This document shows positions 15,430 through 31,103 of a stretch of DNA of 39,103 bases, piece after piece. Positions within the stretch are counted from its first letter, which is position 1; each line of letters begins with the position of its first letter. Origin of the DNA: Elusimicrobiota bacterium (GTDB taxonomy: Bacteria; Elusimicrobiota; Elusimicrobia; UBA1565); contig JACRDU010000130.1 in NCBI GenBank assembly GCA_016218495.1, positions 1 to 39,103 of the forward strand, written 5' to 3'. The notes beneath the pieces are model-generated. The model worked only from the letters and a program-made list of their open reading frames with translations. It had not been told where the DNA came from and made no database searches. Both the position numbers and the translations under genes were made by a program.

Positions 15430-16500
15430 CTACCTAGGGACGACGCGCCAGGACACGCCGGGGGGCGGCGCCGCGTCGAGCGGGAACCCCGCGTCGACGG
15501 CGTCCGAGGGGAGCGGGCTGAACCTGCCGAGGATGGCCGAGAACCGGCCGCCCCGCGCGTCGACATAGAGGGATTCCGTCCAGCGCGCGTCGTCGAGCCC
15601 TCCCTCGTCGGGCAGGGAGAACCTCACGAGGAAGACGCCGTCCAGGGGGCGTCCCGCGCCGTCTACGATCCACCCGCGCCATTCGCGCGTCCGGGAGGCG
15701 GAGACCTCCCGCGGGGCGGGGCCGTTGAATTCGACTACGATCTCGGACCCGTTGCGCTCGATGCTGTAGGGCGCCTGGCGGGAGAGGTCGAGGACCACGC
15801 GGGAGACCGGGTTCTGTCCGGTCTTGAACGGAGCCGAGCGCACGGCGCGCAGCACCCCGCCGGGGCGCGGCGCGGGGGCGGCGGCGGCCGCGTGGAAGGT
15901 GCCGGGGAAATCGATGACGAGGCGCGGGGGGTCCTCGGCGAGGAAGACGGCGGGTTCGACGGGGCGGTCCAGGCTGATGACGGCGCGGTCGGGCTCGGAG
16001 CGCACCGCGAGCAGGCTGGCGAACGGGCTGCGGGGAGCGGGCATGCGCAGCACGGGCACGGAGAGCGGCATGGCGAGCGGGGAGAGCGCGTCGCGCATGT
16101 CGGCGGCCTCGGGTTCATGGGGCGGCGGCGCGGGCACGGCGGCGCGCCCGCGGGGAGGGGTGAAATCCACGACCACCGCGCCCGCGGCCTCCCTGGCCGT
16201 CCCTTCCATCGGGGCGGCGAGGTCGAATACCACGCGCAGCACGGAGGGGTCTTCTCCCCAGGGCGCGGCGCGCATGCGGAGGATGGCGCCGGTCCCGGCC
16301 CAGGTCCGCTCGGGGATGGCGATGGCGGTCGCTTCCAGGTCCACCACGAAGCGGTCGGGGTCCCCCAGGCGGAAGGCGCGGAAGCGCGCCGGGGCATCCA
16401 GAGCCAGCCGGCCGCCCGCCGCACCGACGGAGACTCCTGTCAGGTTCGCCGCGCCGGCGACGGGGACGACCGTCAGGAACGCCGCTAGAAGGCAGTTCAT
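15430..16500 (-). CDS. Periplasmic protein with two AMIN-like domains and a shared C-terminal beta domain
   Basis: 356 aa. Signal peptide at 1-18 (MNCLLAAFLTVVPVAGAA). The first AMIN-like unit lies at about 20-115 (RFVVDLEATAI ... VLRVVFDLAAP ... AVVVDF) and the second at about 165-260 (RAVISLDRPVEPAVFLAEDPPRLVIDFPG ... VSRVVLDLSRQAPYSIERNG). AMIN domains bind peptidoglycan and occur in amidases and in type IV pilus/secretin proteins. Residues about 270-356 are a different domain (GWIVDGAGRPLDGVFLVRF ... WTESLYVDARGGRFSAILG). It recurs near the N-terminus of the LysM protein at 18422-19144. TAATAT ends 6 bases before the ATG. Assignment of AMIN domains is by pattern. The specific cell-wall role is unknown. 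Confidence 0.82.
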   Translation of the reverse strand: MNCLLAAFLTVVPVAGAANLTGVSVGAAGGRLALDAPARFRAFRLGDPDRFVVDLEATAIAIPERTWAGTGAILRMRAAPWGEDPSVLRVVFDLAAPMEGTAREAAGAVVVDFTPPRGRAAVPAPPPHEPEAADMRDALSPLAMPLSVPVLRMPAPRSPFASLLAVRSEPDRAVISLDRPVEPAVFLAEDPPRLVIDFPGTFHAAAAAPAPRPGGVLRAVRSAPFKTGQNPVSRVVLDLSRQAPYSIERNGSEIVVEFNGPAPREVSASRTREWRGWIVDGAGRPLDGVFLVRFSLPDEGGLDDARWTESLYVDARGGRFSAILGRFSPLPSDAVDAGFPLDAAPPPGVSWRVVPR

Positions 16501-16618: not shown

Positions 16619-18391
16619 TCAGAACTGGATTTTGAGGCCGACGCCGGTGCGCGTGTCGGAGTAGTTGAACTGGTCGGCGAACAGGGAGTAGCGCTGCAGG
16701 AGCTGGAAGTTGACGTCGGTGGAGAGCCAAGGGCGGACCTTATACTCGACGCGGGCGCCGTAGCTGTAGAGGTCGTCGCGACGGTTGCCGGAGACGGTGC
16801 CCGCCGTCGTCGATGTGGGATAGCGGTCGGTCTCGAAGGAGGCGTCGCCCGACAAGGCCAGCTTGCGCCAGCTGTGCGCGAGGCCCAGGGAGAGGCCGGT
16901 CGCCACATAATGACGGTTCCCCGCGAAGGTGGTCTCGTTGACGGAGCGGAAGAGCCGGGTGCGGGCGTCGGTCCGGCGCGCGGCCTTGATGCGCAGGTCC
17001 ACCGCGGTCAGCAGGTTCGTGGCCGTGGTCGGGCTCCCCGCGGGCGGATTTTCATAGCGGCGGCGCTGGACGTCGGCTTGGATGCGTCCGCTCACGCGGG
17101 GGCCGAGCACGCCCTCCAGCCCGAGGCCGAAGCGGTCGGAGTGGGAGTGGTCGCGGCGTCCCGCGGAGTAGTGGACGATCTCGCGCGCATAGGCTAGGAA
17201 CGTCTTGGTCTTGGGCGCCAGCTTGATTCCCGCCTCGCCTCCGAATGACGCCTCGTAGCGGTTCAGCGAGGAGGCCATCGTGGGGTCGAGGTACTTGTGC
17301 AGCGCGTGCCTGGCGGCGACGCGGAAGACGAACCGCCGGCTGCGTTCGAAGTCGAGGGCGAAGGAGGATTCCAGCATCGTGCGGCGCTGGCGGGCCACCA
17401 GCTCCGAGAAGGCGGGGTCCTCGGTGTTGAGATAGCTCTCGGAGAGGGTCAGCCCCCCCCCGCGCTGGCCGCGCAGGTCGTAGCCGACCTTTATGTCCTG
17501 GTCGACGGCGTTGTTGGTCTTGGGCTGGTTGGAATAGTTGGTGGCCTTCGCGGAATAGAGGCCGCGCAGCTCGCTGCGCTTGCTCAGAGGGAGCTTCCAC
17601 CCTGTCCCCAGCTCGTTGGTCGTGATCCAGGAGCCAAGGACGCCGCCTCCGGTCCGCCGGCCGTCGGGCTTGTCGGGCGGGACGAGGTAGATGTTCGAAT
17701 CGTAGGTCTGGGAGAGGCGGTAGAAGGGATGCAGCTCCAGCACCAGGCGAAGCTCCGGGCGCCCGACGCGGGAGAGCTTGGAGACCCCGGCGGCCAGCGC
17801 GGCAAGCGGGTCCCACTCGGGCTCGGCCGCGACGGGGGGCAGGGGGGCGGGCGCAGGCTGGGGCGTCTGCGCCGCCGGGGCCGAAGGCACGGAAGGCGGC
17901 GGAGGGGAGGCCGGCGCCGGCGCTTGATCGGGCGCGGCCGGGGCGGCGGGGGACGGAGGCGCGACGGGAGCCGCCGCCCCGGGCAGCAGGCCGGCCTGAG
18001 GACCCGTCAAGGCCAGGAAGCGGCCGCTCTCGACCAGGATCGGGGCCTGTCCCGGTGCGGCCACCTCGACGGCCCCGGCGTTCACGAGCAGCCGGACCTG
18101 TCCGTCCACGGCGGCGGTGGTGAAGTCGTCGCCGGCATCGACCCGGATCAAAGTGTCCGAGACCAGCAGAGTCGCGGCGCCCTGGGCGACCGCCGCGCGG
18201 GCCCCGACCGGCACTTCGTAGGCGGCCGCCCCGGGTTCGAGGGCCATGGCCTTGCCGTCGATGCGAAGCCACAGGTAGTCCCCGAAGGCGACGACGGCCA
18301 GCCCCGCCGGGGGCTGGGCGGAGGCCGGGCACGGGGCGGAGGCCAACAGGAGGGCGGCCGCTACTCCGGCGTTTCTAAATTTCCCGTTCAT
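16619..18391 (-). CDS. Outer-membrane beta-barrel with FecR-like N-terminal domain
   Basis: 590 aa. Signal peptide at about 1-25 (MNGKFRNAGVAAALLLASAP, cleavage after ASA). Residues 26-115 resemble a FecR-type small beta domain (VPVGARAAVAQGAATLLVSD ... VRLLVNAGAVEVAAPGQ). Residues about 118-195 are a Pro/Ala linker. From about 210 to 590 alternating aromatic/hydrophobic strands with charged turns form a beta-barrel of the BBP2/capsule-porin kind (YDSNIYLVPP, LRGLYSAKATNYSNQPKTNN), ending in KIQF, a typical BAM-recognised terminal Phe. It should sit in the outer membrane. An ATG at 18403 overlaps the TACAAT box and would extend the N-terminus by four residues, so the ATG at 18391 is used. Last gene of the kinase cluster, 30 bases after the LysM gene. 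Substrate unknown. Confidence 0.85.
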   Translation of the reverse strand: MNGKFRNAGVAAALLLASAPCPASAQPPAGLAVVAFGDYLWLRIDGKAMALEPGAAAYEVPVGARAAVAQGAATLLVSDTLIRVDAGDDFTTAAVDGQVRLLVNAGAVEVAAPGQAPILVESGRFLALTGPQAGLLPGAAAPVAPPSPAAPAAPDQAPAPASPPPPSVPSAPAAQTPQPAPAPLPPVAAEPEWDPLAALAAGVSKLSRVGRPELRLVLELHPFYRLSQTYDSNIYLVPPDKPDGRRTGGGVLGSWITTNELGTGWKLPLSKRSELRGLYSAKATNYSNQPKTNNAVDQDIKVGYDLRGQRGGGLTLSESYLNTEDPAFSELVARQRRTMLESSFALDFERSRRFVFRVAARHALHKYLDPTMASSLNRYEASFGGEAGIKLAPKTKTFLAYAREIVHYSAGRRDHSHSDRFGLGLEGVLGPRVSGRIQADVQRRRYENPPAGSPTTATNLLTAVDLRIKAARRTDARTRLFRSVNETTFAGNRHYVATGLSLGLAHSWRKLALSGDASFETDRYPTSTTAGTVSGNRRDDLYSYGARVEYKVRPWLSTDVNFQLLQRYSLFADQFNYSDTRTGVGLKIQF

Positions 18392-18401
18392 CGAAGGTGG
18401 C

Positions 18402-18407
18402 ATTGTA
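18402..18407 (-). promoter_or_regulatory. -10-like box TACAAT before the FecR/barrel gene
   Basis: TACAAT on the minus strand ends 10 bases before the ATG at 18391, giving a leader of only a few bases. It overlaps a false upstream ATG at 18403. It could serve as an internal promoter that lets the outer-membrane protein be made independently of the upstream kinase genes. Confidence 0.5.
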
Positions 18408-18421
18408 ACACGAAATCCTAT

Positions 18422-19144
18422 CTATTTCGGAGGCGCCGGGATAACCAGCTTCTGGCCCACGGTGAGCTCTCCGGCGCGCTGGAGGCGGTCGCTGTTGGCC
18501 TGATACACCAGGATCCAATGACGCTCGTCACCCAACGCCTTGAAGGCGACCGTGCGCAGCGTGTCCCCCTTTTGGGCGACGTAGATCCTCGGGCCTTGGG
18601 GCGCGGCGGCGGGAGCGCCGACGGCCCGCTCGAGAGCGTCCAGGCGCCGCTTGTTCTCCTCGTTCTCCTTACGGGCCCGGTCCGCTTCCGAGCGGGCCTG
18701 CTGCAGCTCCCTCTGGACCCCGGCCGGTTCCGCCGGGCGGGCGGACGGCTCGGCGGGCCGGGCTGCCGGGGCCGCCGACGCGGCGCTTCCCGGCCGGTCC
18801 AAGGCCGGCAGGCCGTCCGCGAACGCGGCCCAGCCCATCCCCTTTGGGGCGTCCACCGAAAGCCGATAGGCTCCGCGCAGCACGGAGTCGGGCAGCCGCT
18901 GCGTGCCGCCGAGCAGGGCCGAGAACCGCCCCCCCTGCGCCCGCACATAGCGCGACTCGCTCCAGGCCGGCGCCGGGCCGGAGGCGTCGTCGAAGATGCG
19001 GAAATGCAGCAGATAGGAGCCGTCGAGCGGGCGGCCCTGGGCGTCGAAGAGGGTGCCGGAGTAGCGCAGCGTCGGCACCGGCTCCGCCGCGCTCAAGGCG
19101 GCGGCCTGCAGGCTTGCAAGAAAGACGGCGGCGAAGAGTCTCAT
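18422..19144 (-). CDS. Secreted LysM protein
   Basis: 240 aa. Signal peptide at 1-20 (MRLFAAVFLASLQAAALSAA). Residues about 25-110 are a beta domain (YSGTLFDAQGRPLDGSYLLHF ... WSESRYVRAQGGRFSALLG) also found at the end of the AMIN protein. An Ala/Pro linker and a short coiled coil (QRELQQARSEADRARKENEE) follow. The C-terminal LysM domain (IYVAQKGDTLRTVAFKALG ... YQANSDR ... LTVGQKLVIP) should bind peptidoglycan. TGA-G-ATG junction with the upstream receiver/propeller gene, and a GGGGGGA Shine-Dalgarno lies inside that gene's end, so the two are coupled. It probably acts in the periplasm as a cell-wall-attached part of the signalling cluster. Confidence 0.88.
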   Translation of the reverse strand: MRLFAAVFLASLQAAALSAAEPVPTLRYSGTLFDAQGRPLDGSYLLHFRIFDDASGPAPAWSESRYVRAQGGRFSALLGGTQRLPDSVLRGAYRLSVDAPKGMGWAAFADGLPALDRPGSAASAAPAARPAEPSARPAEPAGVQRELQQARSEADRARKENEENKRRLDALERAVGAPAAAPQGPRIYVAQKGDTLRTVAFKALGDERHWILVYQANSDRLQRAGELTVGQKLVIPAPPK

Positions 19145-19145
19145 C

Positions 19146-20351
19146 TCATCCCCCCTGCGCCCGTTCAGAGAATGCTTTCAGCGGGCGTTCGTAGACGACG
19201 GCCCGTCCATCGCGGGCGAACCAGACCGTCCCGCCCCTGACGGCGAACGCCGAGAGGGGCTCCGGCCCGCGGTCCAGCGCGGGCAGGGCGTATACGGCGA
19301 GCACGGTCAGCGACTTGTCGAGCCGATGACGGTAGATCCTGCGCGTCTCGGAATCCGCGGACCAGAGGTAGGCGTCGTCCTTGTGCAGCCCGGTCGGGGA
19401 TTTCGCCGGGGCCTTGAAGCTCTCCAGCACGACGAGGTCTCCCTCCCCCCCGTGGCGGTAGACGCGCCCGAGCGCCGCGTCCGAGGACCACAGATAGCGG
19501 CCGTCCCAGAACAGGCCCGAGGGGCTCGGACCCGGGGCGGGGTGGCTCCGGACGAGCGAGAGCGAGGCGTCGAGGCGGCGCTCCTCGATGACCTTGCGCG
19601 AGGCGTCGGCGACGAACATCCGCTCCCCGGAGACAGCCAGCGCGGTCAGGGTGGTGTCCGGCAGATGCACCGAGCGCACCGCCTCCAGCTTTCCGCCCGC
19701 CAGCCGGTACTGGTAGACGCTCTGCGAGACCCAGTCCGCCGCCCACAGCGTCTCCCCGGCCCAGACCAGCGCGGTGGAGTGCTGGTGGGATATCGGGTAA
19801 TCGCGCCCGGGCTCGGAGCCGCGCGCGGCCCAGAACCCGGCGACGACGGCGAGCAAGGCGGCGCAGGCCAGGGCCGTCCATAGGCCCCGGTCGCCGCCTT
19901 CCCCGACGGCGGCGTCCTCCGGCCGGAGCGCCGGCGGGGTGCGCAGAGCCGGGGACGGCAGCCGCGGGGCGGAGGCGGGCGCGGGCATCCGGCCACCATT
20001 GAGTATGCGCTCCACGGTCTCGACGAGCTCCTGGTTGCTGAACGGTTTGGACAGATAGTGGCTCGCCCCGAGCCGCATGACCTCGACGGCCGATTCCACG
20101 CTGCCGTAGCCGGTGACCATCACCACCGGCGTGGCCTTGTCGCGCTCGCGCAGCGCCCGCAGGATCTGAGGCCCGTCCATTCCCGGCAGCCGCATGTCGA
20201 GGAGGACCAGGTCGGCTCCGTCCTTAGCCAGGAACTCCAGCGCCCCGGGCCCGTCGCCGGCCTCGAAGACCTGGTGCCCGATGCGGTTCAGGACGTTGGC
20301 CAGGGCCATGCGCATGTCCGGCTCGTCGTCTACCACTAGGATGCGTGCCAT
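19146..20351 (-). CDS. Response-regulator receiver domain fused through a TM helix to a beta-propeller
   Basis: 401 aa. Residues 1-118 are a canonical receiver domain: acidic pair Asp8-Asp9, phosphoacceptor Asp52 in LVLLDMRLPGMDG, Thr80 in MVTGYG and Lys102 in LSKPF. Residues 119-156 are a Pro-rich linker. Residues 157-176 are one transmembrane helix (LWTALACAALLAVVAGFWAA). Residues about 190-400 contain five similar repeats of about 40 residues with the pattern L-x-x-x-G-x-x-L-W-x-x-D-x-x-x-x-x-V/I-Y (GETLWAADWVSQSVYQYRL, GRYLWSSDAALGRVYRHG, DAYLWSADSETRRIYRHRL). They look like beta-propeller blades. With the receiver in the cytoplasm, the propeller would be periplasmic. There is no DNA-binding or enzymatic output domain. 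It starts 10 bases after the giant kinase stop, with AGAGG upstream, so it is its likely phosphorylation partner. Confidence 0.88.
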   Translation of the reverse strand: MARILVVDDEPDMRMALANVLNRIGHQVFEAGDGPGALEFLAKDGADLVLLDMRLPGMDGPQILRALRERDKATPVVMVTGYGSVESAVEVMRLGASHYLSKPFSNQELVETVERILNGGRMPAPASAPRLPSPALRTPPALRPEDAAVGEGGDRGLWTALACAALLAVVAGFWAARGSEPGRDYPISHQHSTALVWAGETLWAADWVSQSVYQYRLAGGKLEAVRSVHLPDTTLTALAVSGERMFVADASRKVIEERRLDASLSLVRSHPAPGPSPSGLFWDGRYLWSSDAALGRVYRHGGEGDLVVLESFKAPAKSPTGLHKDDAYLWSADSETRRIYRHRLDKSLTVLAVYALPALDRGPEPLSAFAVRGGTVWFARDGRAVVYERPLKAFSERAQGG

Positions 20352-20361
20352 GTTGCCTCTT

Positions 20362-23300
20362 CTATCCTTCCTTTGCCGGCAGCGTCAAGGCCGCGGTGCT
20401 CCCGGCCCCTTCCTTGCTGGTGAACTCGAGCGTCCCGCCATGGGCCGCCGCGATGCGCCGCGCCGTCGCCACGCCCAAGCCGATTCCGCCCGGCTTCGTC
20501 GTGAAGAACGGACGGCCGACCTCCTTCAGATGCTCCGGCGCCGTCCCGGCGCCTTCGTCGGAGACCCCGAGGCGGACGGCGCCTTCCGGGGCTCCGGCGG
20601 CGCTCAGGAGCACGCGCCCGCCCTTCTTCGACGCCTCGACGGCGTTGACGACCAGGCGCGCCAGCGCCTCGGCGAGGCGCTCGGGGTCCGCGTCGAGGGC
20701 CGGCAGGCCGGCCCGGCAGTCCACCTCGATGCGCACGCCCTTCTCCTTGGCCGCGGCCGCCGACGAAGCGGCGGCGCGCGACAACGCGGCCTCGGGACGG
20801 ACGGCCGTCCGGTTCAGCGGCAGCGGCCGCGTGAATTCGACCAGGTCCTCCAAGCGCTCGCGCAGGGTCCCGATGGCCCTCAGCATGGCCTCGAGCGACG
20901 AGCGCTCCTTGCCCCGCACCAGCACGCTGGACAGCCGGTCTTCCGCCAGGCTCTGCATGATTCCGAGCGGGTTGCGCACCTGGTGGGCGATGCCGAACAC
21001 CAGGTCCCGCAGCTCGCTCTCGAAGGCTTCGGGCGGGAGCGGGCCCTCAGAAGGCCCCTTGCGCAGGTGCTTGACCATCCGCGCGCGCAGCTCCCGCACC
21101 TCTTCGCGGGACTTGCGCGACTCCTCTTCGGCCGCCGCGAGCCGGGCTTCCCGCTCCTGGAAGCTCCGCTCCCTGGCGGCCAGCTCGGACTCCGCCGCCG
21201 CGATACGGCTGCGGACCTTCTCGTCGGTGCCCTTCAGGGTCGAGTCGAGCTCCCTGCGGCGCGCCTCGAACTCTGCGGCGCGCTTCTCGTCCTCTCGGAC
21301 CCGGCGCGCCGATTCCTCGGATTCCCGCTTCTCCAGCGCGGCCAGCCGCTCGGCGAGGGCGTGCTCGCGTTCCGCCAGCCTCTGCGCGTCGGCCAGGCGC
21401 TCCTTCTCCAGCTCCGCGACCCGCGCCTGCGCCTCGGCCTCGGCCTTGAGCGCCGCAGCCCGCTCGGTCTCCAGGCGCCGGGCCGCGTCGAGGCGCTCGT
21501 CTTCCGCCTGCCGCGCCGCCTCCTCGCGCTCCGCCGCCGCCCGTTCCGCCGCGAGCAGACGCTTCTCGGCGGCGGCCCGCTCCTCGCGGGCCCTGCGGCG
21601 CTCGGCGTCGAGCCGTCCTTCGAGCTCGCGCTCCAGCGCGGCGCGCTCCTCGAACGCGCGCGCTTCCGCCTCCGCCGCCTGCTTGCGGGCCCCCGTCTCG
21701 GCCGCCGCCGCGCGCTCGCGCGCCTCGGCCTCGGCCCGAGCGAGTGCCTTGCGGTGCTCCTCGTCGCGGGACGCCAGTTCCTTGTCCAGGCGGGCCCGTT
21801 CTTCGCGCCGGACGGAGCGCTTGAGCTCCTCTTCGCGCCGCACGAACTCCCGCTCCAGCGCCGAGCGCTCCTCGGAAAGGCGCTCGTCGCGCTTCGTCAG
21901 CTCGTCGCGCAGGGCCTCATGCAGCTCCGAGCTCGAGCGGGTCAGCTCCAGGCGCGCCCGGTCCTGGGACTCGGCCGCCTGGCGGAGCATCTCCTCTTCA
22001 CGCGCCTTGAAGGCGCCCTGCATCTCCTCTTCGCGCCGCAGGTGCTCATGGCGCATCGCGGCCTCGCGCTCGCGCAGGTCGCGCTCCGACTCGGCCCGCC
22101 GGGCTTCCACGGCCTCGAGCGCCCGCCCCGCCTCGTCGCGCTGGAGCTGGGCCTGCTTCTTGAGCTCGAGCTTCTCCGCCTCGAGGGCGGCCTGGCGCCT
22201 GGCGAATTCCTCGCGCTGGACCCGCTCGCGGCGCAGCAGCGCCTCGGCGGCCTCGGACTCCTCGGCGGCGGCCCGCCGGCGCAGTTCCTCGCGCCCCAGC
22301 TCGACCTCGGCCATCGCCGCCGCCCACTCGTCGCGCAGGGCCTTGCGGTCCGCCTCTAGCCGCGCGGCGGCCTCGGCCGCCGCCCGTTCCGAGGCCCGGC
22401 GCAGCTCGGCCTCCCGCTCCGCCGCAGCCTTTTCCAGGGCCGCCTCGCGGTCGCGGAACTCCTTGAGCCAGGCGTCCTTCTCGGCCTCCAGGCCCTTGCG
22501 GCTCTCCGCGTCCTCGGCCTCGCGCTGGACGCGCTCGCGCTCGATGACGGCCAGGCGTTCCTTGGCGGCCGCCTCCAAGGACTCATGGCGCCGGCGGTAG
22601 TCGGCCTCGAGCGATGATTCCTTCTGGCGCAGCAGCTCGTCGGCGCGCTTGCGCGCCGCTTCGGCGTCCCTCACCCGCTTCTCGAGGTCGTCCTGACGCG
22701 ACCGCATGGCCAGCTCGAGCGCTTCGCGCTCGACCGCCAGGGCTTCCAGGTCGGTGCGGCGGGCCTGCTTGAGCTCCTGCTCCTTGCGCGCGAGCTCGGC
22801 GCGCAGCTCCGCCTCGCGCCTGGAGAAGGTCTCTTCGAGCTGCTGTTGGACCAGCTCGGCTTCCCTCTCGCGCCGCTGCACCTCGCCTTGCCTGGCGGTC
22901 TCGGCCTCGGCCGCCGCGGCCCGCTCGGCCCGCAGCGACTCGCGTTCCCGCTCGAGCTGCGCCCGGAGCTGGCGCTCGCGCTCCAGGAAGGCGGAACGGA
23001 GTTCGGCCTCGCGGCCGGAGAAGGCCTGGGTCATGGCCGCTTCGCGCTCGCGCAGGTGGTTCTCGATGTCCGTCCGCCTCTGGTCGGTCTCGCGCATCCG
23101 CCGTACGGCCTCGGCCTCCAGGTCCTGCTGGCGGGCCTTGAACTCCTCTTCGAGCGAGGCCCTCCGGTGGGAGGTCTCCTCGGTGAAGCGGCGCCTCTCG
23201 TCGGCCATCTTGGCGGCGGAGTCCGCCTCGCGCTGGGAAGCAGCCTCCCGCAGCTCGGCCTCGCGCTGCGAGAGGAGCTTTTCCGTGGCGGCGGCGCGTT

Positions 23301-26300
23301 CCCGGGCCCGGGCTTCGAGGGCCTCCCGGGCGCCTTCGAGCTCTCTCTGAGACCTGGACAGCTCCGCCTCGCGGGCGGCGAACACCTCGGCAAAGGCAGC
23401 CTCCCGTTCGGCGACGGCCTTATCCGCCGCGGCACGGGACGCCTCGAGCTCCTGGAGCCGCCGCGCCTTGTCCGTCTCGAGCTGCTGGCGTTCCTTCTGG
23501 AGCTCGGCCTCCCGCCGCTTGACGCCCGCCTCGAGCGTGCGGCGTTCGTTGGCGAAAGCCTTGCGGAGTTCGAGCTCGCGCGCCTTCAGCGACTGCTCGG
23601 CGGCGGCCTCGCGGGCCGCCGTCGACTCGGCCAGGGCGGCCTCGCGTTCGGCGAAGGCCTTCTCGTTCATCGTCTTGACGGCGTCCGCCTCGTGCTGCCG
23701 CCGGGCGGCCTCTTCCTCGAACTGGCGCTGCTCCCGGGCGAGGGCCTCCTCCCGCTGGCGGTGGGCCGCGTCCAACCGGCGCCGGTCCTCCTCGATCGAC
23801 CCGCGCAGCTCCTCCTCCCTGGCCGCGAAGGCCAGGCGCAGGTCGTCGGCGCGCCGCTCGAGCTCGCGCTGCGCGCGCTCTTCCGCGGACTTGAGCTGCC
23901 GGTCCGCCTCGGCCCGAAGGGACTCGGCCTCACGGCGCTTCTGGGAATACTCCTCTTCGAGCCGCGCGCGCTCGGCAGCCAACGCCTCGGCCCGCTCCTT
24001 CTCCAACAGTTCCAGCGAGCGCTGCCGTTCCGCGAAGACCCGCTGCAGCTCGGCCCGCTCGCCTTCCAGCTCCACGCGCCGGCGTTCGAGGCGTTCGAGG
24101 GCCTGCGCCCTCTCCCGCTCGGCGGCGGCTTCCCGGCGCCGGAAGTCCGACTCGAGGTCGGCCTCGCGTTCCCGGACCTCCTCCTGAAGCTGGGCCGCCC
24201 TCTGTTCGAGCTCGCGCAGCTTGCCCGCGTGCGCCGCCTCCAGCAGCCTCTTCTCCTTCTCCATCTCCGCCTGCACGCGCCGCGAGGACTCATCGTTCCA
24301 TGCGGCTTCCTTCTGGGCCATGCGCTCGGTGAAGCCCTTCAGCTCGCCGGCGAGGCGTTCGTCGGACTCTTGCTTGAGGAGGTCGGCCTTGTGCTGCCAT
24401 TCCGCCATCAGGTCGGATTCCATGCGCAGGTAGGTCCGCTGCAGGCCTTCCTCGCGCTGACGGTACATCTGGTCGAGGGCCGTGCGTTCGGCCGCCTGCT
24501 TTTCCTGCAGCGAGCCGATGAGGGCGCTCTCGCGCCGGCGCAGCTCCTCGCGCAGGGCCTCTTCCTTGGCCCGAGCATCTTCTTCGAGCGCGCTGCGGCG
24601 CTGCTCCGACTCGGCGAGGATGCGCTGGCTCTCCGCGGCGGTGTCCGCCATCGACCGGCGATGGGCCTCGCGCAGCGCCTCGCGTTCGACGGCGAGCTTG
24701 CGCTTCTCTTCGGCGAGCCAGGCCGCGCCCCGCGCGTCATGGTCGGCGCGGGCCTCTTCGAGCTTCTTGGCGGCCTCGGCGTCGAGCGCCGACCGGAGCG
24801 AGGCCAGGCGCGCCTCGGCCCGGGCCTGCGCTTCGAGGGCCTCCCCGCGCAGGCGCTCGGTCTCGGCCGCCAGGCGGGCGCGATAGGTCTCGCGCTCCTC
24901 ATCGACCTTGGCCATCAGCTCGCCCTCGCGGGCGCGCCACTGGGTCTCGAGCGACTGTTCGCGGTCGAGGAAGGACTTCTCCAGCCGCGACTCCTTGTCC
25001 CGCAGGGCCGCCAGCATCCGCTGGCGGTCGCTCTCGAGGTCGGCGGCGCGCTTCTCGAGGTCCTCTTCGAGGGCGGCCCGGCGCGACTCGAGCGCGGCCT
25101 GGGCCTCGAGCGCCGATTTCTCGTCGCGCTGGCGCGCGCGTTCGGCGAAGGCGTCGTCGGCCTCCTTCAGGTGGCGCTTGAGCGCCTCCCGCGACTGGTC
25201 CTCCAGGAGGGCCGCGCGGTGCGCCCAGTCGTTCTTCAGCTGGGCCTCGAGGCTGAGGTAGTTCTGGTGCAGCGTCTCTTCGCGCTTGCGGAAGATGTCG
25301 TCGAGCCCCACCCGCTCGCGCCCGAGCGTCTCCTGCACCTCTTCGTTGAGGCGGCGCTCCTTCTGACGCCATTCCTCGTTATGCTCCGTCTCGCGCCGGC
25401 GGTTGTACTGCTCTAGCGCCTCGCGGCGCTGGGCCAGCTCCTTCTCGCGCTGCTCGGCCTCGGCATTGAGCGTCTCGAGGTGCGCCCGGGCCTGGGCCTG
25501 CAGCTGCTCGCGCTCGCGGATGAGCCCGCGGCGCTGGCGCTCCATCCAGTCCTCCTTCTCCTTCTCCGCCTGGGCGGCGATGTCGCGCCGGACCGCTTCG
25601 ACGCGGCCGGAGAGCGTCTCTTCCAGGGCCGCGTTGCGGGCCGCCGCCGCCTCGCGCTCCTTCTGGCGCTCGGCCTCGATGGCCTGGACTGCCGCCGCGA
25701 AGCCCACCGCCTGCTCTTCGAGCGCGGCGCGGTGCCTGTCGGCTTGCTCACGTTCCTTGACGGCGATGAGCTGCTGCAGGGAACGCTCGGCCGCGAGGTG
25801 CTTCGCGTCGCGCTCCGCGGCGCGGCGGCGCTCGGCCTCGTGGAGCTCGACGCGCTCGGACTCCCAACGCCGCTCGCGCGCCTGGAGCTCTCCCCAGAGG
25901 TTCTGCTTCTCGGCTTCGAGTGCGGTCGCCGCGTCCTGCAGCCTTCCGGCTTCGAGCGCCCGCTCTTCGAGCCGGTGCTCCAAGTCGAGGCGCTCGACCT
26001 GAGCGGCCTCCTGCTGCGAGCGCTGGCGCCCCAGCCATTCCGCGTCGCGGCGCTCGGCGTCGAGCTGGACCTGCCGGAGGGCGTCCTGCATGCGGCGGTC
26101 GGCTTCGGCCCGGATGGTCTGGCATTCGAGGCGGTGACCGTCGACGAGCGCCGCTTCGCGCTTCTGCGCCCGCCCTTCGATCTCGGCCTCGAGCTTCGCG
26201 AACTGGCGCTTCATCTCCTGGCTGCGGGCGAGGAGCTCTTCCTCCCCCTGGCGGCGGCGCTGGTCGAACTCGGCCCGGACGCGTTCGAACTCGACCTTCG

Positions 26301-27930
26301 AAGACCGCCGCTCCTGCTCGAGGGCGGTCTCGTAGCGGCGGATGACGTCGGCTTCGCGCTCGTGCCACTCGCTGTCGAGGTTCTTCTCTTTGGCCACGTA
26401 TTCGGTGACGACGCCCTGCTTCCAGGTCCGGAACTGCTCCTCCATGCCCGCCCGGGCCCTTTCCAGCTCGGCGACTCGGGCCTGGTAGGCCTCTTCGAAC
26501 GCGCGCTCCTTCTGGCGGACCTGCTCGGCCAGCGAAGCCCGCTCGGCCTCGACGGCCTTCTCGTGCTCGCTGAGCAGCTGCACCTTCCGGCGGGTCCAAT
26601 CGTCGCGCAGCTCGTTCTCGCGGGCCAGGTGGCTCTCTTGCAGCTCGACGGTCCGCCGGTTGAAGGCCTCCTCGAGGGAAGCCTCGCGCTGCAGCGCGCC
26701 CGACTCGGCCTCGGCGGCCCGGGATGCGGCCTCGGCTTCGAGCGTGCGGCGGGTCTTCTCGACCTCCCGCGCGAAGTCCGACTCCCTGCGGGCGAGCTCG
26801 TTGACGCGCGCGGAATGCTCCTCTTGCAGCACGGCGGCGCGCTTGCGCGCCTCTTCGACGGCGGAGGCTCGCTCCTTCTCGAGGTCCTCTTCGAAGCGGG
26901 CGAGCAGGGTCTGTTCGAGGCGCTTGTGGCGCTCGACCAGGCCGCGCTCGAGCTCGGCGGTCCGGCGCTCGTTCTCCGAGACCCGGGCGGTGAAGTCGGC
27001 GTCGAGCTCCTGGCGGCGGCGCTCGAGGTGGGCCTCGACCTCGGAGGTTCGGTCGGCGAGGGCCCTCGCGCGTTCGTCGAACTGGGCGTTGACGGCCCGG
27101 TCGAGCTTCTCGCGCGCTTCCTTGGCGCGCTCCCAGAGCCCGTTCTCCACGTCGGCCCAAGCCGCCTGCAGCTCGGCCTCGCGCTTCGCGTAGCGCTCCT
27201 GGAGCTCCATCTCCCGGGCCTTGTAGTCGCGGGTGAGGCGCTCTTCGCGCTCACGCAGCTTGAGCTCGGAGTCCTGGGTCTGCGCCGCAAGCACGCGCTG
27301 GAACTCCTCGTTCACGCGCTTGAGGCGGAGGATTTCGGATTCCTTGAGTTCCAGCTCCTTCTCCCGGTTCTTCAGGGTGGAGAGGATTTCCTCATCGCGG
27401 CGGCGGCGCAGCTGGAGCACCATCTCCTGGTCCTTCTGGAACCGGGCCACCAGCGCGGCCTTCTCGGATTGGGACTGGCGGAGCTCGGCTTCGCGCTGCT
27501 CGAGCACCTTGCGGACCTCGCCCCACTGGTGCTCCTTGTGGGCGTGGGTGGCCTTCCAGGTCTCGACCTGGGCGGCCAGGGCGGCCAGCTCGTCTTCGGA
27601 CTGGCGGCGCTCACGCTCGACGCGCGCTCGCTCCTCCTCGCGCACTTCGAGCCTGACCCGGTCCTTCCAGCGTTCTTCCTTCTGGGCGGATTCCCGCCGC
27701 TCGATCTCCCAGCGTTCTGCCTCCTTCTGCCACACCTCGAGCTGCTTGCGGTATTCCGCCGACTGGGTTCGGGCTTCGTGCTCGCGCGCCTGGGCCTCCT
27801 GGAGGGTGCCCTTGAGGCGCGACGAGAGGTCCTGGAGGTCGCGGATCGTGGCCACGGCCCCCCGGATCGCAAGTCGCGCTGCTTCGACGTCGTTTATCTG
27901 CGCGAACGCTTCTTCATCCCAGGGATTCAT
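20362..27930 (-). CDS. Giant coiled-coil histidine kinase
   Basis: About 2,522 aa. Residues about 30-2290 are an almost unbroken, highly charged heptad-type sequence rich in Glu, Arg, Ala and Leu (RREAEL, REEELRR and similar). There is no signal peptide, no membrane helix and very little Pro or Gly, so it is a cytoplasmic coiled coil. The end is a complete histidine kinase: H-box FGIAHQVRNPLGIM with the phospho-accepting His near 2316, N-box LARLVVNAVEAS (Asn about 2429), G1 VSDEGAG (about 2457-2463), F-box RPFFTTKP and G2 GGIGLG. A fully helical rod of that length would be roughly 0.3 micrometre long. Start ATG 27930 has GGAGA at good spacing; ATG 27936 is an alternative. The N-terminus (MNPWDEEAFAQINDVEAARL) is a short non-repetitive cap. 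It lies between the small kinase and the receiver/propeller gene. Confidence 0.9.
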   Translation of the reverse strand: MNPWDEEAFAQINDVEAARLAIRGAVATIRDLQDLSSRLKGTLQEAQAREHEARTQSAEYRKQLEVWQKEAERWEIERRESAQKEERWKDRVRLEVREEERARVERERRQSEDELAALAAQVETWKATHAHKEHQWGEVRKVLEQREAELRQSQSEKAALVARFQKDQEMVLQLRRRRDEEILSTLKNREKELELKESEILRLKRVNEEFQRVLAAQTQDSELKLREREERLTRDYKAREMELQERYAKREAELQAAWADVENGLWERAKEAREKLDRAVNAQFDERARALADRTSEVEAHLERRRQELDADFTARVSENERRTAELERGLVERHKRLEQTLLARFEEDLEKERASAVEEARKRAAVLQEEHSARVNELARRESDFAREVEKTRRTLEAEAASRAAEAESGALQREASLEEAFNRRTVELQESHLARENELRDDWTRRKVQLLSEHEKAVEAERASLAEQVRQKERAFEEAYQARVAELERARAGMEEQFRTWKQGVVTEYVAKEKNLDSEWHEREADVIRRYETALEQERRSSKVEFERVRAEFDQRRRQGEEELLARSQEMKRQFAKLEAEIEGRAQKREAALVDGHRLECQTIRAEADRRMQDALRQVQLDAERRDAEWLGRQRSQQEAAQVERLDLEHRLEERALEAGRLQDAATALEAEKQNLWGELQARERRWESERVELHEAERRRAAERDAKHLAAERSLQQLIAVKEREQADRHRAALEEQAVGFAAAVQAIEAERQKEREAAAARNAALEETLSGRVEAVRRDIAAQAEKEKEDWMERQRRGLIREREQLQAQARAHLETLNAEAEQREKELAQRREALEQYNRRRETEHNEEWRQKERRLNEEVQETLGRERVGLDDIFRKREETLHQNYLSLEAQLKNDWAHRAALLEDQSREALKRHLKEADDAFAERARQRDEKSALEAQAALESRRAALEEDLEKRAADLESDRQRMLAALRDKESRLEKSFLDREQSLETQWRAREGELMAKVDEERETYRARLAAETERLRGEALEAQARAEARLASLRSALDAEAAKKLEEARADHDARGAAWLAEEKRKLAVEREALREAHRRSMADTAAESQRILAESEQRRSALEEDARAKEEALREELRRRESALIGSLQEKQAAERTALDQMYRQREEGLQRTYLRMESDLMAEWQHKADLLKQESDERLAGELKGFTERMAQKEAAWNDESSRRVQAEMEKEKRLLEAAHAGKLRELEQRAAQLQEEVREREADLESDFRRREAAAERERAQALERLERRRVELEGERAELQRVFAERQRSLELLEKERAEALAAERARLEEEYSQKRREAESLRAEADRQLKSAEERAQRELERRADDLRLAFAAREEELRGSIEEDRRRLDAAHRQREEALAREQRQFEEEAARRQHEADAVKTMNEKAFAEREAALAESTAAREAAAEQSLKARELELRKAFANERRTLEAGVKRREAELQKERQQLETDKARRLQELEASRAAADKAVAEREAAFAEVFAAREAELSRSQRELEGAREALEARARERAAATEKLLSQREAELREAASQREADSAAKMADERRRFTEETSHRRASLEEEFKARQQDLEAEAVRRMRETDQRRTDIENHLREREAAMTQAFSGREAELRSAFLERERQLRAQLERERESLRAERAAAAEAETARQGEVQRREREAELVQQQLEETFSRREAELRAELARKEQELKQARRTDLEALAVEREALELAMRSRQDDLEKRVRDAEAARKRADELLRQKESSLEADYRRRHESLEAAAKERLAVIERERVQREAEDAESRKGLEAEKDAWLKEFRDREAALEKAAAEREAELRRASERAAAEAAARLEADRKALRDEWAAAMAEVELGREELRRRAAAEESEAAEALLRRERVQREEFARRQAALEAEKLELKKQAQLQRDEAGRALEAVEARRAESERDLREREAAMRHEHLRREEEMQGAFKAREEEMLRQAAESQDRARLELTRSSSELHEALRDELTKRDERLSEERSALEREFVRREEELKRSVRREERARLDKELASRDEEHRKALARAEAEARERAAAAETGARKQAAEAEARAFEERAALERELEGRLDAERRRAREERAAAEKRLLAAERAAAEREEAARQAEDERLDAARRLETERAAALKAEAEAQARVAELEKERLADAQRLAEREHALAERLAALEKRESEESARRVREDEKRAAEFEARRRELDSTLKGTDEKVRSRIAAAESELAARERSFQEREARLAAAEEESRKSREEVRELRARMVKHLRKGPSEGPLPPEAFESELRDLVFGIAHQVRNPLGIMQSLAEDRLSSVLVRGKERSSLEAMLRAIGTLRERLEDLVEFTRPLPLNRTAVRPEAALSRAAASSAAAAKEKGVRIEVDCRAGLPALDADPERLAEALARLVVNAVEASKKGGRVLLSAAGAPEGAVRLGVSDEGAGTAPEHLKEVGRPFFTTKPGGIGLGVATARRIAAAHGGTLEFTSKEGAGSTAALTLPAKEG

Positions 27931-28058
27931 GTCCATTCTCCAGTCATACGGCCTCCAGGTCGCCCCCCACGATGGGGCGTTGTCGCGGCAAACGGCGACG
28001 GCACGGTCAGGGCGCACGCCCACATAGGGCGCGCCTCGGCGCAATCCCCACAAATATA
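27931..28058 (-). promoter_or_regulatory. Upstream region of the giant kinase gene
   Basis: The stretch contains a candidate -10 TATATT (28058 to 28053) without a good -35. Two GC-rich hairpins follow: 28014-28034 (8 bp with one G-U, 5-base loop) and 27961-27979 (CGCCCC/GGGGCG). If transcription starts near 28046, the leader is about 115 bases and structured. A six-codon frame starting at 27946 (ATGACTGGAGAATGGACATGA) has its UGA overlapping the chosen start codon. Read-through from the small kinase gene is equally possible. Confidence 0.25.
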
Positions 28059-28098: not shown

Positions 28099-28119
28099 AA
28101 ATCCCCTGGAAAGGGGTTT
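28099..28119 (-). terminator. Weak hairpin at the end of the small kinase gene
   Basis: On the minus strand AAACCCCT-TTCC-AGGGG(A)TTT forms an 8-bp stem with one bulged A and a 4-base loop, starting within the stop codon. It is followed by few U residues, so it is at most a partial terminator or an mRNA end-stabilising structure. Confidence 0.35.
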
Positions 28120-28804
28120 ATAAGGGAAGGCGGACCACGGCCGTGGTCCCGTTTCCGGGGGCGCTGGCTAGCTCCAGGGCTCCTCCGCTGTCCTCAAGGA
28201 GGCGGCGGGTCAGATAGAGCCCCAAGCCGGTGCCGTTCGGCTTGCTCGTGAAGAACGCCGTCCCGGCCTTGGCCAAAGTGTCCCCGTCCATGCCGGCGCC
28301 GCTGTCGGAGATGGTGGCCTTCGCCTCCGTCCGGGAGGTCTCCACCCGAACCCTCAGCGTGCCGCCGCGCGGCATCGCCTCCAAGGCGTTGACGAGGAGG
28401 TTGTGCAGCGCCGTTTCCAGGGCCCGTTCGTCGCCGGCCGGAGCGGCGCGGCAGGAGAGTTCGGCCTCGAGGCGCACCCCGTGCGACACGAGCATCTTGT
28501 CGAGGAGCCTGAGCTGGCGCTCCAAGAGGCGCGAAAGGTCGCAGGGGCCCAGCCCGGACGCGGGCGCCGCCGCGAAGTCCAGCAGGGCCTGCGCGGCCTG
28601 AGCGGCCTGGCGTGCGTTGCGCAAGATGGTTTCGAGCCCGTCCTTGAGCTCTCCGGCGGGTTCCATGTGGGAGAGGGCCAGCTCGGCGGTGGAGGAGATG
28701 ACGTGGAGCGGACCCCTGATGTCGTGGGCGAATGAGCCCGCCGCGCGGCCGACGGCGCTCAGGCGTTCCAACCGCGCCAGGGCCTCCTTCGTCGGAGCAT
28801 CCAC
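28118..28804 (-). CDS. Small soluble histidine kinase without sensor domain
   Basis: 228 aa. It consists only of the kinase core. The H-box is GSFAHDIRGPLHVISSTAEL with phospho-accepting His27. The N-box is LHNLLVNALEAMP, G1 ISDSGAGM, F-box TAFFTSKP and G2 GTGLGLYLTRRL. There is no membrane segment or sensor domain, so it acts in the cytoplasm and must receive its signal through a partner. The core is similar in order and motifs to that of the giant kinase just downstream, which suggests a paralogue pair that could form heterodimers. The start is GTG 28804, because TGC-TATACT ends exactly 6 bases upstream. A frame reaching upstream through an ATG in the palindrome is rejected because it would place the promoter inside the gene. 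Confidence 0.88.
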   Translation of the reverse strand: MDAPTKEALARLERLSAVGRAAGSFAHDIRGPLHVISSTAELALSHMEPAGELKDGLETILRNARQAAQAAQALLDFAAAPASGLGPCDLSRLLERQLRLLDKMLVSHGVRLEAELSCRAAPAGDERALETALHNLLVNALEAMPRGGTLRVRVETSRTEAKATISDSGAGMDGDTLAKAGTAFFTSKPNGTGLGLYLTRRLLEDSGGALELASAPGNGTTAVVRLPL

Positions 28805-28810
28805 GCGCCG

Positions 28811-28819
28811 AGTATAGCA
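28811..28819 (-). promoter_or_regulatory. Extended -10 promoter of the small kinase, leaderless
   Basis: On the minus strand TGC-TATACT (28819 to 28811) is followed by exactly 6 bases and GTG. The TGn motif is the extended -10 element. The expected -35 region lies inside the 28828-28898 palindrome, so a protein bound there could control this promoter. Confidence 0.65.
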
Positions 28820-28827
28820 CGCTCGAA

Positions 28828-28898
28828 CGGTGTCAGACATTCGAAAGTTTCGGAAACCGGAGCGCGGAACTTCCAAAACTTTCGAATGTCTGACACCG
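28828..28898. repeat. 71-bp long palindrome with TGTCTGACACCGG ends
   Basis: Perfect 23-bp arms (28828-28850 and 28876-28898). The right arm reads AAACTTTCGAATGTCTGACA then CCG. The hairpin continues inward after one mismatch with GGAA/TTCC. It fills most of the divergent spacer between the small kinase and the gene at 28955. A half copy occurs at 16542-16556. It may be a REP/MITE-like mobile repeat, a bidirectional transcription barrier or a large operator. Confidence 0.85.
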
Positions 28899-28916
28899 GT
28901 GGCACTGGTGGCGGTC

Positions 28917-28945
28917 TTGCGGGGGAGAGGAAACACGGCTACAAT
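28917..28945 (+). promoter_or_regulatory. Promoter of the 28955 gene, nearly leaderless
   Basis: TTGCGG (28917-28922), a 17-base spacer and TACAAT (28940-28945). The ATG at 28955 begins 9 bases after the hexamer, so the leader would be about 0-3 bases. It starts 19 bases outside the palindrome. Confidence 0.65.
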
Positions 28946-28954
28946 CTCTGCGAG

Positions 28955-29848
28955 ATGAAACCGGAATCCACCGCGGCCGTCCCCGATCCCGTCGAGGTCC
29001 GGGAAGGACTTTGGAAGGTGCGTTCGGCGCACCCGCGCGGCCTCTTCCGAGTCGGCATCGGCAAGAAGCACGCCCAGGCGAACTCGCTCTTCCTGGAGGT
29101 GAACGGCAAGCGCCGCTTCGAGGTCGGCAACGACTGCGACACCTGCCACTTCTGGTTCAAGATGCTGCAGGAGCCGAAGGCGCTGGCCCAGAAGAAGATC
29201 GTCAACCTCCCGAAATCGCTGGCCATCCCCCGCCCGATGGGCGTCGAGGTGCTGCGCGACATCCAGCCTATGATCGACCTGATGGACAAGGGCGAGCATT
29301 ACGTCTTCAGCACCCAGCTCAACCTCGTCGGGCCCTATAGCGGCGAGGACGAGAACTCCTATTTCTACAACGCCGAGTTCCAGGAGATCTGGGACGTCGA
29401 GGACCCGGCGGCCGAGGACCTCCTTTCCGGCTGGGAGCACTACGAGGGCCGGACCCCGCGCGTCTTCCGCCAGGGCGAGATTCTCGAAAAGCAGTTCGAC
29501 TTCGTCATCCCCCTGGTCCCCTCCTCGAAGCTCAAGCAGGAGAACATCCGGCTCTATCAGCAGATGATCCAGGGCGGCGACCGCCCCAAGGTCCTGCTGC
29601 TCGGGTTGCTGCAGAGGGCCGTGCCCGAGACCGTCTCCTCGGGGCGCCTGAAGAACCTGCACTCCTTCTTCGCCGGCTTCATCCTGGACGGCCACCACAA
29701 GCTGGCCGCCTATCAGCGCGCCGGGGTCCCGGCCAACTGCATCGTCATCCTGGAGCCCAAGGCCAGCAAGTACTACCTCCTCGAGGGAGAAGGCGCGAAC
29801 TCGCGCGTCCGGCTCGAGGAACGCCTCGCCTCCCTCGCCGCGTCCTGA
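28955..29848 (+). CDS. Unrecognised cytoplasmic protein with CDTC and DGHHKLAAY motifs
   Basis: 297 aa, no signal peptide or membrane segment. I do not recognise the family with confidence. Visible features are a CxxC pair in VGNDCDTCHFWFKML (about 60-74), which could bind metal or be redox-active, and FILDGHHKLAAYQRAG near residue 250. The latter resembles the substrate/nucleotide-binding turn of ParB/sulfiredoxin-like proteins (xDGHHRxxAxxxxG). A central region is rich in Asp/Glu and aromatics (EDENSYFYNAEFQEIW). The start is ATG 28955 after a good promoter; an ATG at 28886 lies inside the palindrome and is rejected. The following gene starts 1 base after the stop, so they form an operon. 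Confidence 0.8.
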   Translation: MKPESTAAVPDPVEVREGLWKVRSAHPRGLFRVGIGKKHAQANSLFLEVNGKRRFEVGNDCDTCHFWFKMLQEPKALAQKKIVNLPKSLAIPRPMGVEVLRDIQPMIDLMDKGEHYVFSTQLNLVGPYSGEDENSYFYNAEFQEIWDVEDPAAEDLLSGWEHYEGRTPRVFRQGEILEKQFDFVIPLVPSSKLKQENIRLYQQMIQGGDRPKVLLLGLLQRAVPETVSSGRLKNLHSFFAGFILDGHHKLAAYQRAGVPANCIVILEPKASKYYLLEGEGANSRVRLEERLASLAAS

Positions 29849-29849
29849 C

Positions 29850-31103
29850 GTGCCGCCCCGCTCCGCGGAGCGTCCCGCCCTCCCCGTCCTGACCGCCTTC
29901 GTCGGCACGGCCCTCATCCTGGCGGGGCAGGCGTCCCGGCTCTCCCCGTTGACGGATGCCGTGGACGCCGGCCCGTTCGAATCGGCCGGGCTGGGCTTTC
30001 CGGCCGGATACGTGCTGAGCGCCCCGTTCTCCGCGCTGGCCGACCTCCTCACTTTCTCGAGCGCTTCACAGGCCGCGGCCTGGCTGGCCTGGATCGCCGC
30101 GTCGTATTGGGTCCTGCGCGCCTTCCGCCCGGCCCGCAGCCTCGGCTCCGCGCTGGCCGGCTGGGCGGCCTGGTCGGCCTCGGCCGCGCTCTTCCTCGCC
30201 TGGGCGCTGCTCTTCCCCAGGCCGATTGCCACGATCGTCTTCGACGACCCGCGCCTTGCGGCGCTCGACTTCCATTCGCATTCCTCCTGCTCCCACGACG
30301 GGAGGGGCTCCTTCTCGCCGATGGAGAACGCCGCCTGGCACGGCGCCGCGGGGTTCCGGGCGGGATTCCTTACCGACCACAACAGCGACGCCTGCTCGCG
30401 CGTTCCGGCGTCGGCCGGCGGCGCGGATTCGCTGCACGGCATCGAGCTCAGCCTGCATGGCGCCCACGTCGTGGCCCTGTCCCCGCACGGGGAGATTCCG
30501 CTGGCGCGCTACCAGGCCGGCCAGGCCGGCCTGGAGGCGTTCCTGCGCGAGGCCTCCCCCGTCTTCGGCGCGGCGCCCATCCTGAGCCTTCCGGAGTATT
30601 GGAGGCATCACCGCGCCGGCCTCGCCGACCTGGCCGGCCACGCATCGCTGCCCGCAGGAATCGAGGTGGCGAACGGGGCGCCGAAGGCCCTGCAGGCCCA
30701 AGACGAGGCGCGCCCCTCCGCCCTCTCCTTCGCCCGCGCGCGCGGGATGTTCCCGGCCTGCGCCACCGACAACCATGGCTGGGCCCAGGCGCCCTACTGC
30801 TGGAACGTAATGTCGCTGCCCGGACACCAGGACATGTCCCCGCCCGACCTCGAGGCGGCCGTGATGGCCTCCCTGCGCTCGGAGGGCTTCGACGCGGTCC
30901 GGGTCGTCGAGCGCCGCCGGGTGCGGACCTCCGCCGGCTGGCGCGCGGCGTTGGACCCGCTCCTGGGCCTTTGGGTCCTGGCCAGGACGCTGAGCCCGCT
31001 GCTCGCGGCGGCCTCCCTGGCCTGGCTCTGGGCGCTGTGCGCCTTCTTCCGCGCCGCGCCCGCCCTGCGCCCGTCAGACAAGCTCCCCGCCTCTAGGCCT
31101 TAG
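29850..31103 (+). CDS. Membrane-anchored PHP-domain protein
   Basis: 417 aa, GTG start 1 base after the previous stop. Two to three N-terminal hydrophobic segments (about 10-27, 45-70, 73-125) come first. The PHP metallohydrolase domain follows: DFHSHSSCSHDGRGSFSP (about 140-157) supplies the first His-x-His and Asp/His ligands, then GFLTDHNS, HGIELSL and CATDNHGW. PHP proteins are polynuclear metal phosphoesterases or related hydrolases. The ligand set here looks largely intact, so activity is plausible. A C-terminal hydrophobic helix (about 370-400) follows. Whether the catalytic part faces cytoplasm or periplasm cannot be decided by eye. The substrate is unknown; pairing with the CxxC gene suggests a shared pathway. 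Confidence 0.82.
   Translation: MPPRSAERPALPVLTAFVGTALILAGQASRLSPLTDAVDAGPFESAGLGFPAGYVLSAPFSALADLLTFSSASQAAAWLAWIAASYWVLRAFRPARSLGSALAGWAAWSASAALFLAWALLFPRPIATIVFDDPRLAALDFHSHSSCSHDGRGSFSPMENAAWHGAAGFRAGFLTDHNSDACSRVPASAGGADSLHGIELSLHGAHVVALSPHGEIPLARYQAGQAGLEAFLREASPVFGAAPILSLPEYWRHHRAGLADLAGHASLPAGIEVANGAPKALQAQDEARPSALSFARARGMFPACATDNHGWAQAPYCWNVMSLPGHQDMSPPDLEAAVMASLRSEGFDAVRVVERRRVRTSAGWRAALDPLLGLWVLARTLSPLLAAASLAWLWALCAFFRAAPALRPSDKLPASRP

Follow-up and report, generated by a model that had tools for sequence, protein, structure and literature searches.

Two-component systems are taught as circuits that run from the environment to the genes through soluble regulators. The locus described here raises the question of what a response regulator might do when its receiver is followed by a membrane helix and a beta-propeller. 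The window (the whole stretch of DNA analysed, 39,103 nucleotides of the Elusimicrobiota contig JACRDU010000130.1) contains, at 19146-20351 on the minus strand, a 401-codon open reading frame with an ATG start, which a first-pass annotation had read as a receiver coupled across the membrane to a periplasmic propeller. It is divided as follows:

19998..20351 (-): receiver domain, residues 1-118, defined by PF00072 (9.4e-32), AlphaFold2 and the key residues D8, D9, D52, T80 and K102
19887..19997 (-): cytoplasmic linker, residues 119-155, Pro/Ala-rich and predicted to be disordered, from pLDDT and the linker lengths in the family
19824..19886 (-): single transmembrane helix, residues 156-176, from hydropathy and AlphaFold2
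19158..19814 (-): five-bladed beta-propeller, residues 180-398, putatively periplasmic, from AlphaFold2 and Z 24 to 3mbr/3nol/2iwa

Architecture and topology of the protein

The Pfam receiver match spans residues 4-113, and inspection revealed a complete active site, in which the acidic pair D8/D9 accompanies the D52, T80 and K102 listed by the first-pass annotation. The best 19-residue segment of the whole protein (residues 157-175) has a Kyte-Doolittle value of 2.03, no other segment exceeding 0.98, and AlphaFold2 placed a helix at 156-176, in agreement with the one membrane helix assigned earlier to 157-176. The full-protein AlphaFold2 model, computed with 23 relatives, also contains approximately 20 strands across 183-398, with residues 121-154 forming a disordered linker; pLDDT was mostly 93-97 over the receiver and propeller (∼97 for the receiver domain) and below 50 over this linker.

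As structure searches with the full model were swamped by receivers, the propeller was folded separately. The five repeats that had been taken for blades formed a closed, five-bladed propeller (pLDDT 95.9, pTM 0.91), whose best solved relatives were the five-bladed glutaminyl cyclases (3mbr, Z 24.4, 210 residues aligned; Foldseek E 4e-11). Although the fold matches, the glutaminyl cyclase family was absent from the Pfam matches of 36 propellers up to E 0.1. Pfam recognises the repeats weakly (SGL at 0.0018 for the isolated domain), and annotation from sequence alone therefore misses the propeller.

The receiver resembles those of NtrC/AtoC-type response regulators in sequence and fold, in its phosphorylation residues and in the adjacent HisKA-type kinase; unlike these regulators, the protein has no DNA-binding, ATPase or enzymatic output, and its receiver is followed by a membrane helix and a propeller predicted to lie outside the cytoplasm. 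In Reg_prop hybrid systems the propeller is N-terminal and serves as sensor for a kinase on the same polypeptide. The present protein shares with them a periplasmic propeller, a membrane helix and two-component domains, but its propeller is five-bladed and C-terminal to the receiver, the chain contains no kinase, and Pfam found no Reg_prop match in it.

The receiver and the kinase core are cytoplasmic by function. An excess of K/R on the N-terminal side was found in 27 of 29 propeller proteins without a receiver, mostly coiled-coil paralogs, and in intact-receiver proteins the K/R balance favours N-inside by 15 to 6; in the degenerate-receiver proteins the same counts gave no positive-inside signal. 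A Calditrichota homologue of the propeller begins with an apparent signal peptide, followed by the propeller and a further domain. By sequence reading, this protein (L255:451-2073) combines a propeller of this type, apparently secreted, with a transglutaminase-like domain.

The predicted topology thus has the receiver inside the cell, one helix, and the propeller outside the inner membrane; we infer the periplasmic placement with good support from the sequences, and the helix, the fold and the K/R counts agree with the earlier proposal of an extracytoplasmic propeller coupled to a membrane-spanning receiver. The product of 19146-20351 is best explained as a membrane-anchored response regulator with an output outside the cytoplasm. 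Its architecture is unusual for a response regulator, real and conserved; a search of the open-licence literature (subscription papers being outside its scope) returned no matching paper on membrane response regulators with periplasmic propellers.

Distribution of the family and exchange of its cytoplasmic part

A search for the receiver-helix-propeller architecture established that the protein is not a one-off. Among 149 propeller proteins surveyed across Elusimicrobiota, 42 have an intact receiver, defined by the presence of the acidic pair, D52 and K102; in the rest, the cytoplasmic part is a degenerate receiver, a coiled coil or TPR repeats. The propeller is present in 72 of 97 relatives and, outside the class, in other members of the phylum. 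Receiver, helix and propeller stay together in other phylum families at identities as low as 31-38%, which excludes chance. A genome scan, with patterns that were derived from the receiver and would miss propellers with other cytoplasmic parts, gave full-length alignments, among the best 80 of 442 matches, only in 16 Elusimicrobia matches. No relative was found in viral contigs, and a propeller search in the genomes behind 48 other loci returned only other architectures and one Endomicrobia member.

A tree of the propellers places the main coiled-coil clade within the proteins with intact receivers, where its sister is the group that contains the window's protein; the clade hence probably descends from a receiver-bearing ancestor. 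In one group D52 has changed to Glu, and the propeller persists even at loci with neither a working receiver nor a working kinase. The propeller therefore looks like a constant envelope effector, and the receiver like one of several interchangeable controls: the membrane helix and propeller are the constant part, which suggests the effector, whereas the cytoplasmic part is interchangeable, which suggests the input.

The window's own genome also encodes a coiled coil-helix-propeller paralog (L034:3774-7088, on G000:C114), which directly follows Poly_export and Wzz-type genes, with a kelch/fn3 protein encoded close by; the clade of this paralog lies within the receiver-bearing one. Proteins in which TPR repeats replace the receiver before the helix and propeller were found at L251:1007-2059, L246:5615-6739, L249:14424-15518 and L232:5653-6825 (Pfam TPR was tested for L251 and L246); beside all four, the kinase homologue has Arg in place of the phospho-acceptor His.

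The adjacent kinase and joint loss of His and Asp

Two kinase genes lie upstream of the regulator:

20362..28053 (-): giant coiled-coil protein with a histidine-kinase core at its C terminus, the putative cognate kinase
20362..21063 (-): its kinase core, with DHp and ATP-binding domains, H-box FGIAHQVRNPLG, and intact N and G boxes
28118..30442 (-): second histidine kinase, 774 aa, with relatives near the locus in the same order

The giant kinase frame opens at a TTG at 28053, an ATG at 27936 being the likelier start, and ends at 20362; the 10-base gap on which the two genes had been paired is thus correct. A kinase is directly upstream in 37 of the 42 intact family members. Within the window's order this partner has a coiled coil that can exceed 2000 residues; in distant families the partner consists of the core alone (217-231 aa), with neither sensor nor membrane helix.

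Where the kinase is such a soluble DHp-CA core, as in several families, it has no sensor of its own and its input must come from elsewhere. Propellers commonly bind ligands, and the propeller could be an outside-in receptor that senses a periplasmic or cell-wall ligand and alters the receiver-kinase interaction or receiver dephosphorylation, the kinase relaying the signal elsewhere. We regard this as quite improbable, since no cytoplasmic output gene consistently adjoins the pair, and since loci whose receiver and kinase have both been lost or inactivated still encode the propeller.

The phospho-acceptor His is conserved in all 36 kinases with a readable H-box that are paired with an intact receiver, whereas 14 of the 17 kinases beside a degenerate or replaced receiver have lost it. 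The resulting contrast (His/no His 36/0 for intact and 3/14 for degenerate or replaced receivers) gives a Fisher value of 2.8e-10, with rows that are not independent owing to shared ancestry; on the tree, this co-loss of His and Asp needs at least two label changes on well-supported branches and four at the simplest. The lost His is Q or N in two related groups of the class, and R, D or N in other groups of the phylum, including the TPR-propellers. Supported at the sequence level, this co-decay is the best computational evidence that kinase and receiver work as a phospho-pair; together with the constant position of the kinase, it supports the earlier suggestion that the giant kinase is the regulator's likely partner. 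Pairs of pseudokinase and pseudo-receiver were observed at L050, L158, L199, L188, L189 and L212, with His changed to Gln or Asn and D52 to Glu or other residues.

The same decayed loci can be read differently. The cytoplasmic part might serve as a docking scaffold, holding the kinase or other proteins near an envelope complex, with the kinase as an ATP-binding partner and phosphorylation secondary. His-less kinases with recognisable N and G boxes do stay beside degenerate receivers and TPR-propellers, the linker is flexible, and the giant coiled coil is itself scaffold-like. A pure scaffold, however, would need neither the His nor the full receiver active site, both of which are kept in 36 of 36 readable intact pairs, and we consider this explanation rather unlikely, though one to be weighed seriously.

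The H-boxes also bear on the activity of the partner. In kinases beside a D52 receiver, the His is followed by Q (29 kinases), R (five) or K (five), and never by an acidic residue; N occupies position +4 in 37. An acidic residue after the His is needed for the kinase, but not the phosphatase, activity of CrdS and NtrB, and the CrdS E372Q and NtrB E140Q mutants are kinase-negative (PMC3510030). As the partner kinases have no acidic residue next to the His, a phosphatase-biased activity is possible by analogy. The adjacent enzyme might then be mainly a phosphatase, another kinase supplying the phosphate, a scenario compatible with the outward-acting model favoured below. The 774-aa kinase would be one candidate: its H-box (AHDIRGPLH) is acidic at +1, though it has Gly and not Asn or Thr at +4, where its positional relatives have Thr. 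Nevertheless, CrdS phosphatase activity needs the His little, yet the His is strictly kept in the pairs with an intact receiver, and in many families the locus has a single kinase. The stricter notion that Q after the His marks a dead kinase was rejected, because natural kinases with Q exist: a solved HQ kinase (9p6i) aligns, and FlrB carries an HQ motif. FlrB autophosphorylates at H135 (PMC12607845). A mainly phosphatase-type partner is, on balance, improbable.

A 460-aa receiver protein was seen directly upstream of the giant kinase at L056:1525-2913 and L060:18588-19961, and is absent from the window; at L056 it sits between the giant kinase and a kinase resembling the 774-aa one.

Possible envelope partners and a proposed model of outward control

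Downstream of the regulator lie three genes:

18422..19144 (-): 240-aa secreted protein with a C-terminal LysM, 1 base downstream (LysM weak at 0.02 in Pfam; 2.2e-06 to NF008399)
16619..18403 (-): outer-membrane beta-barrel protein, BBP2_2/EpsL-like (PF10082 4.1e-13; TIGR03014 1e-08, below its cut-off)
15430..16500 (-): AMIN-domain protein (PF11741 1.7e-13), probably the last gene of the run

A terminator-like hairpin lies past the AMIN gene, at 15422-15403. Most relatives have a PorV-like barrel, from which the window's EpsL/BBP2-like barrel and LysM protein differ; the coil/LysM end of the 18422..19144 protein recurs in the relatives' PorV-LysM partners. A PorV-LysM-like gene was found near 46 of 49 members lacking D52, as against 23 of 50 having it, by a search model that includes the LysM end, so that some matches are to LysM only. 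The PorV_fam match is absent from the window's LysM protein and occurs only in relatives, just below the curated cut-off (the best example scores 81.2 against 90, with E 1e-22).

In the model that we favour, the giant coiled-coil kinase would phosphorylate and/or dephosphorylate D52 in the cytoplasm, and phosphorylation would alter receiver dimerisation or kinase docking, so that the periplasmic propellers are brought together or separated. Such oligomerisation or docking is favoured as the means of coupling because the linker between receiver and helix is predicted to be disordered and the helix is single; a rigid push through the membrane is unlikely with a disordered linker. The propeller would then engage an envelope partner. 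In most relatives this would be the PorV-like outer-membrane barrel with its peptidoglycan-binding LysM tail; in the window its place would be taken by the LysM protein and the EpsL-like barrel, whose genes immediately follow. Secretion, export or anchoring at the outer membrane could thereby be gated from the cytoplasm, with no need for transcription. Phosphotransfer, the direction of signalling, the periplasmic contacts and the process controlled are what we infer from these arrangements, and to the model as a whole, from kinase to gated outer membrane, we give an even chance.

The first-pass annotation had left two directions open, phosphorylation inside changing the propeller or propeller binding tuning the receiver. 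Inside-out control is favoured, with indirect support, since the propeller persists in many lineages that have no working receiver. Such control by a degenerate cytoplasmic domain has a precedent in LapD, which likewise has a cytoplasmic regulatory domain controlling a periplasmic one through the membrane, but LapD uses c-di-GMP and a HAMP relay where the window protein has a phosphorylated receiver and a single helix, and the two are not homologous (PMC3032553). The broader proposal, that transmembrane response regulators throughout the phylum carry phosphorylation-controlled information outward, via the propeller, to a barrel/peptidoglycan complex, with a control domain that was repeatedly swapped or inactivated, is tentative and somewhat short of even.

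A regulator family with its output across the inner membrane would extend two-component systems to direct, non-transcriptional control of the envelope, and its recurrence beside its own histidine kinase suggests that something in the envelope, and not only genes, is under such control. The kinase-receiver pairs, which share one propeller and range from intact through half-decayed to dead, form a natural series for comparing what phosphorylation adds.

Known counterparts come from type IX secretion. PorX/PorY likewise links a two-component pair to a secretion apparatus of the outer membrane, and PorX contacts an inner-membrane subunit (PMC5445135); PorX, however, is soluble and has no propeller, and the Elusimicrobiota relatives have only sub-cut-off PorV-family-like and SprA-like proteins. 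PorE (PG1058) resembles the present system in joining a periplasmic propeller to peptidoglycan binding (PMC5445135), but is a lipoprotein with TPR, propeller, CRD and OmpA domains and has no receiver or kinase. SprA-like matches, all below the cut-off, occur in 112 of 117 genomes of the class, and none in the window's genome, a draft assembly. Taken at the level of sequence, these matches hint at a possible distant type IX-like translocon in Elusimicrobiota. The regulator's neighbours in the window have no PorV match, and to label the window's system a type IX component would be an overreach. The window also contains, at 31168-36876, a 1902-aa reading frame with no Pfam or NCBIfam match. The sub-cut-off SprA proteins are ∼1800-2000 aa long (class genomes G001-G130, for example at L213 and L214), and proteins with fn3 and CHU_C/FlgD-type C-terminal domains are encoded nearby in several loci.
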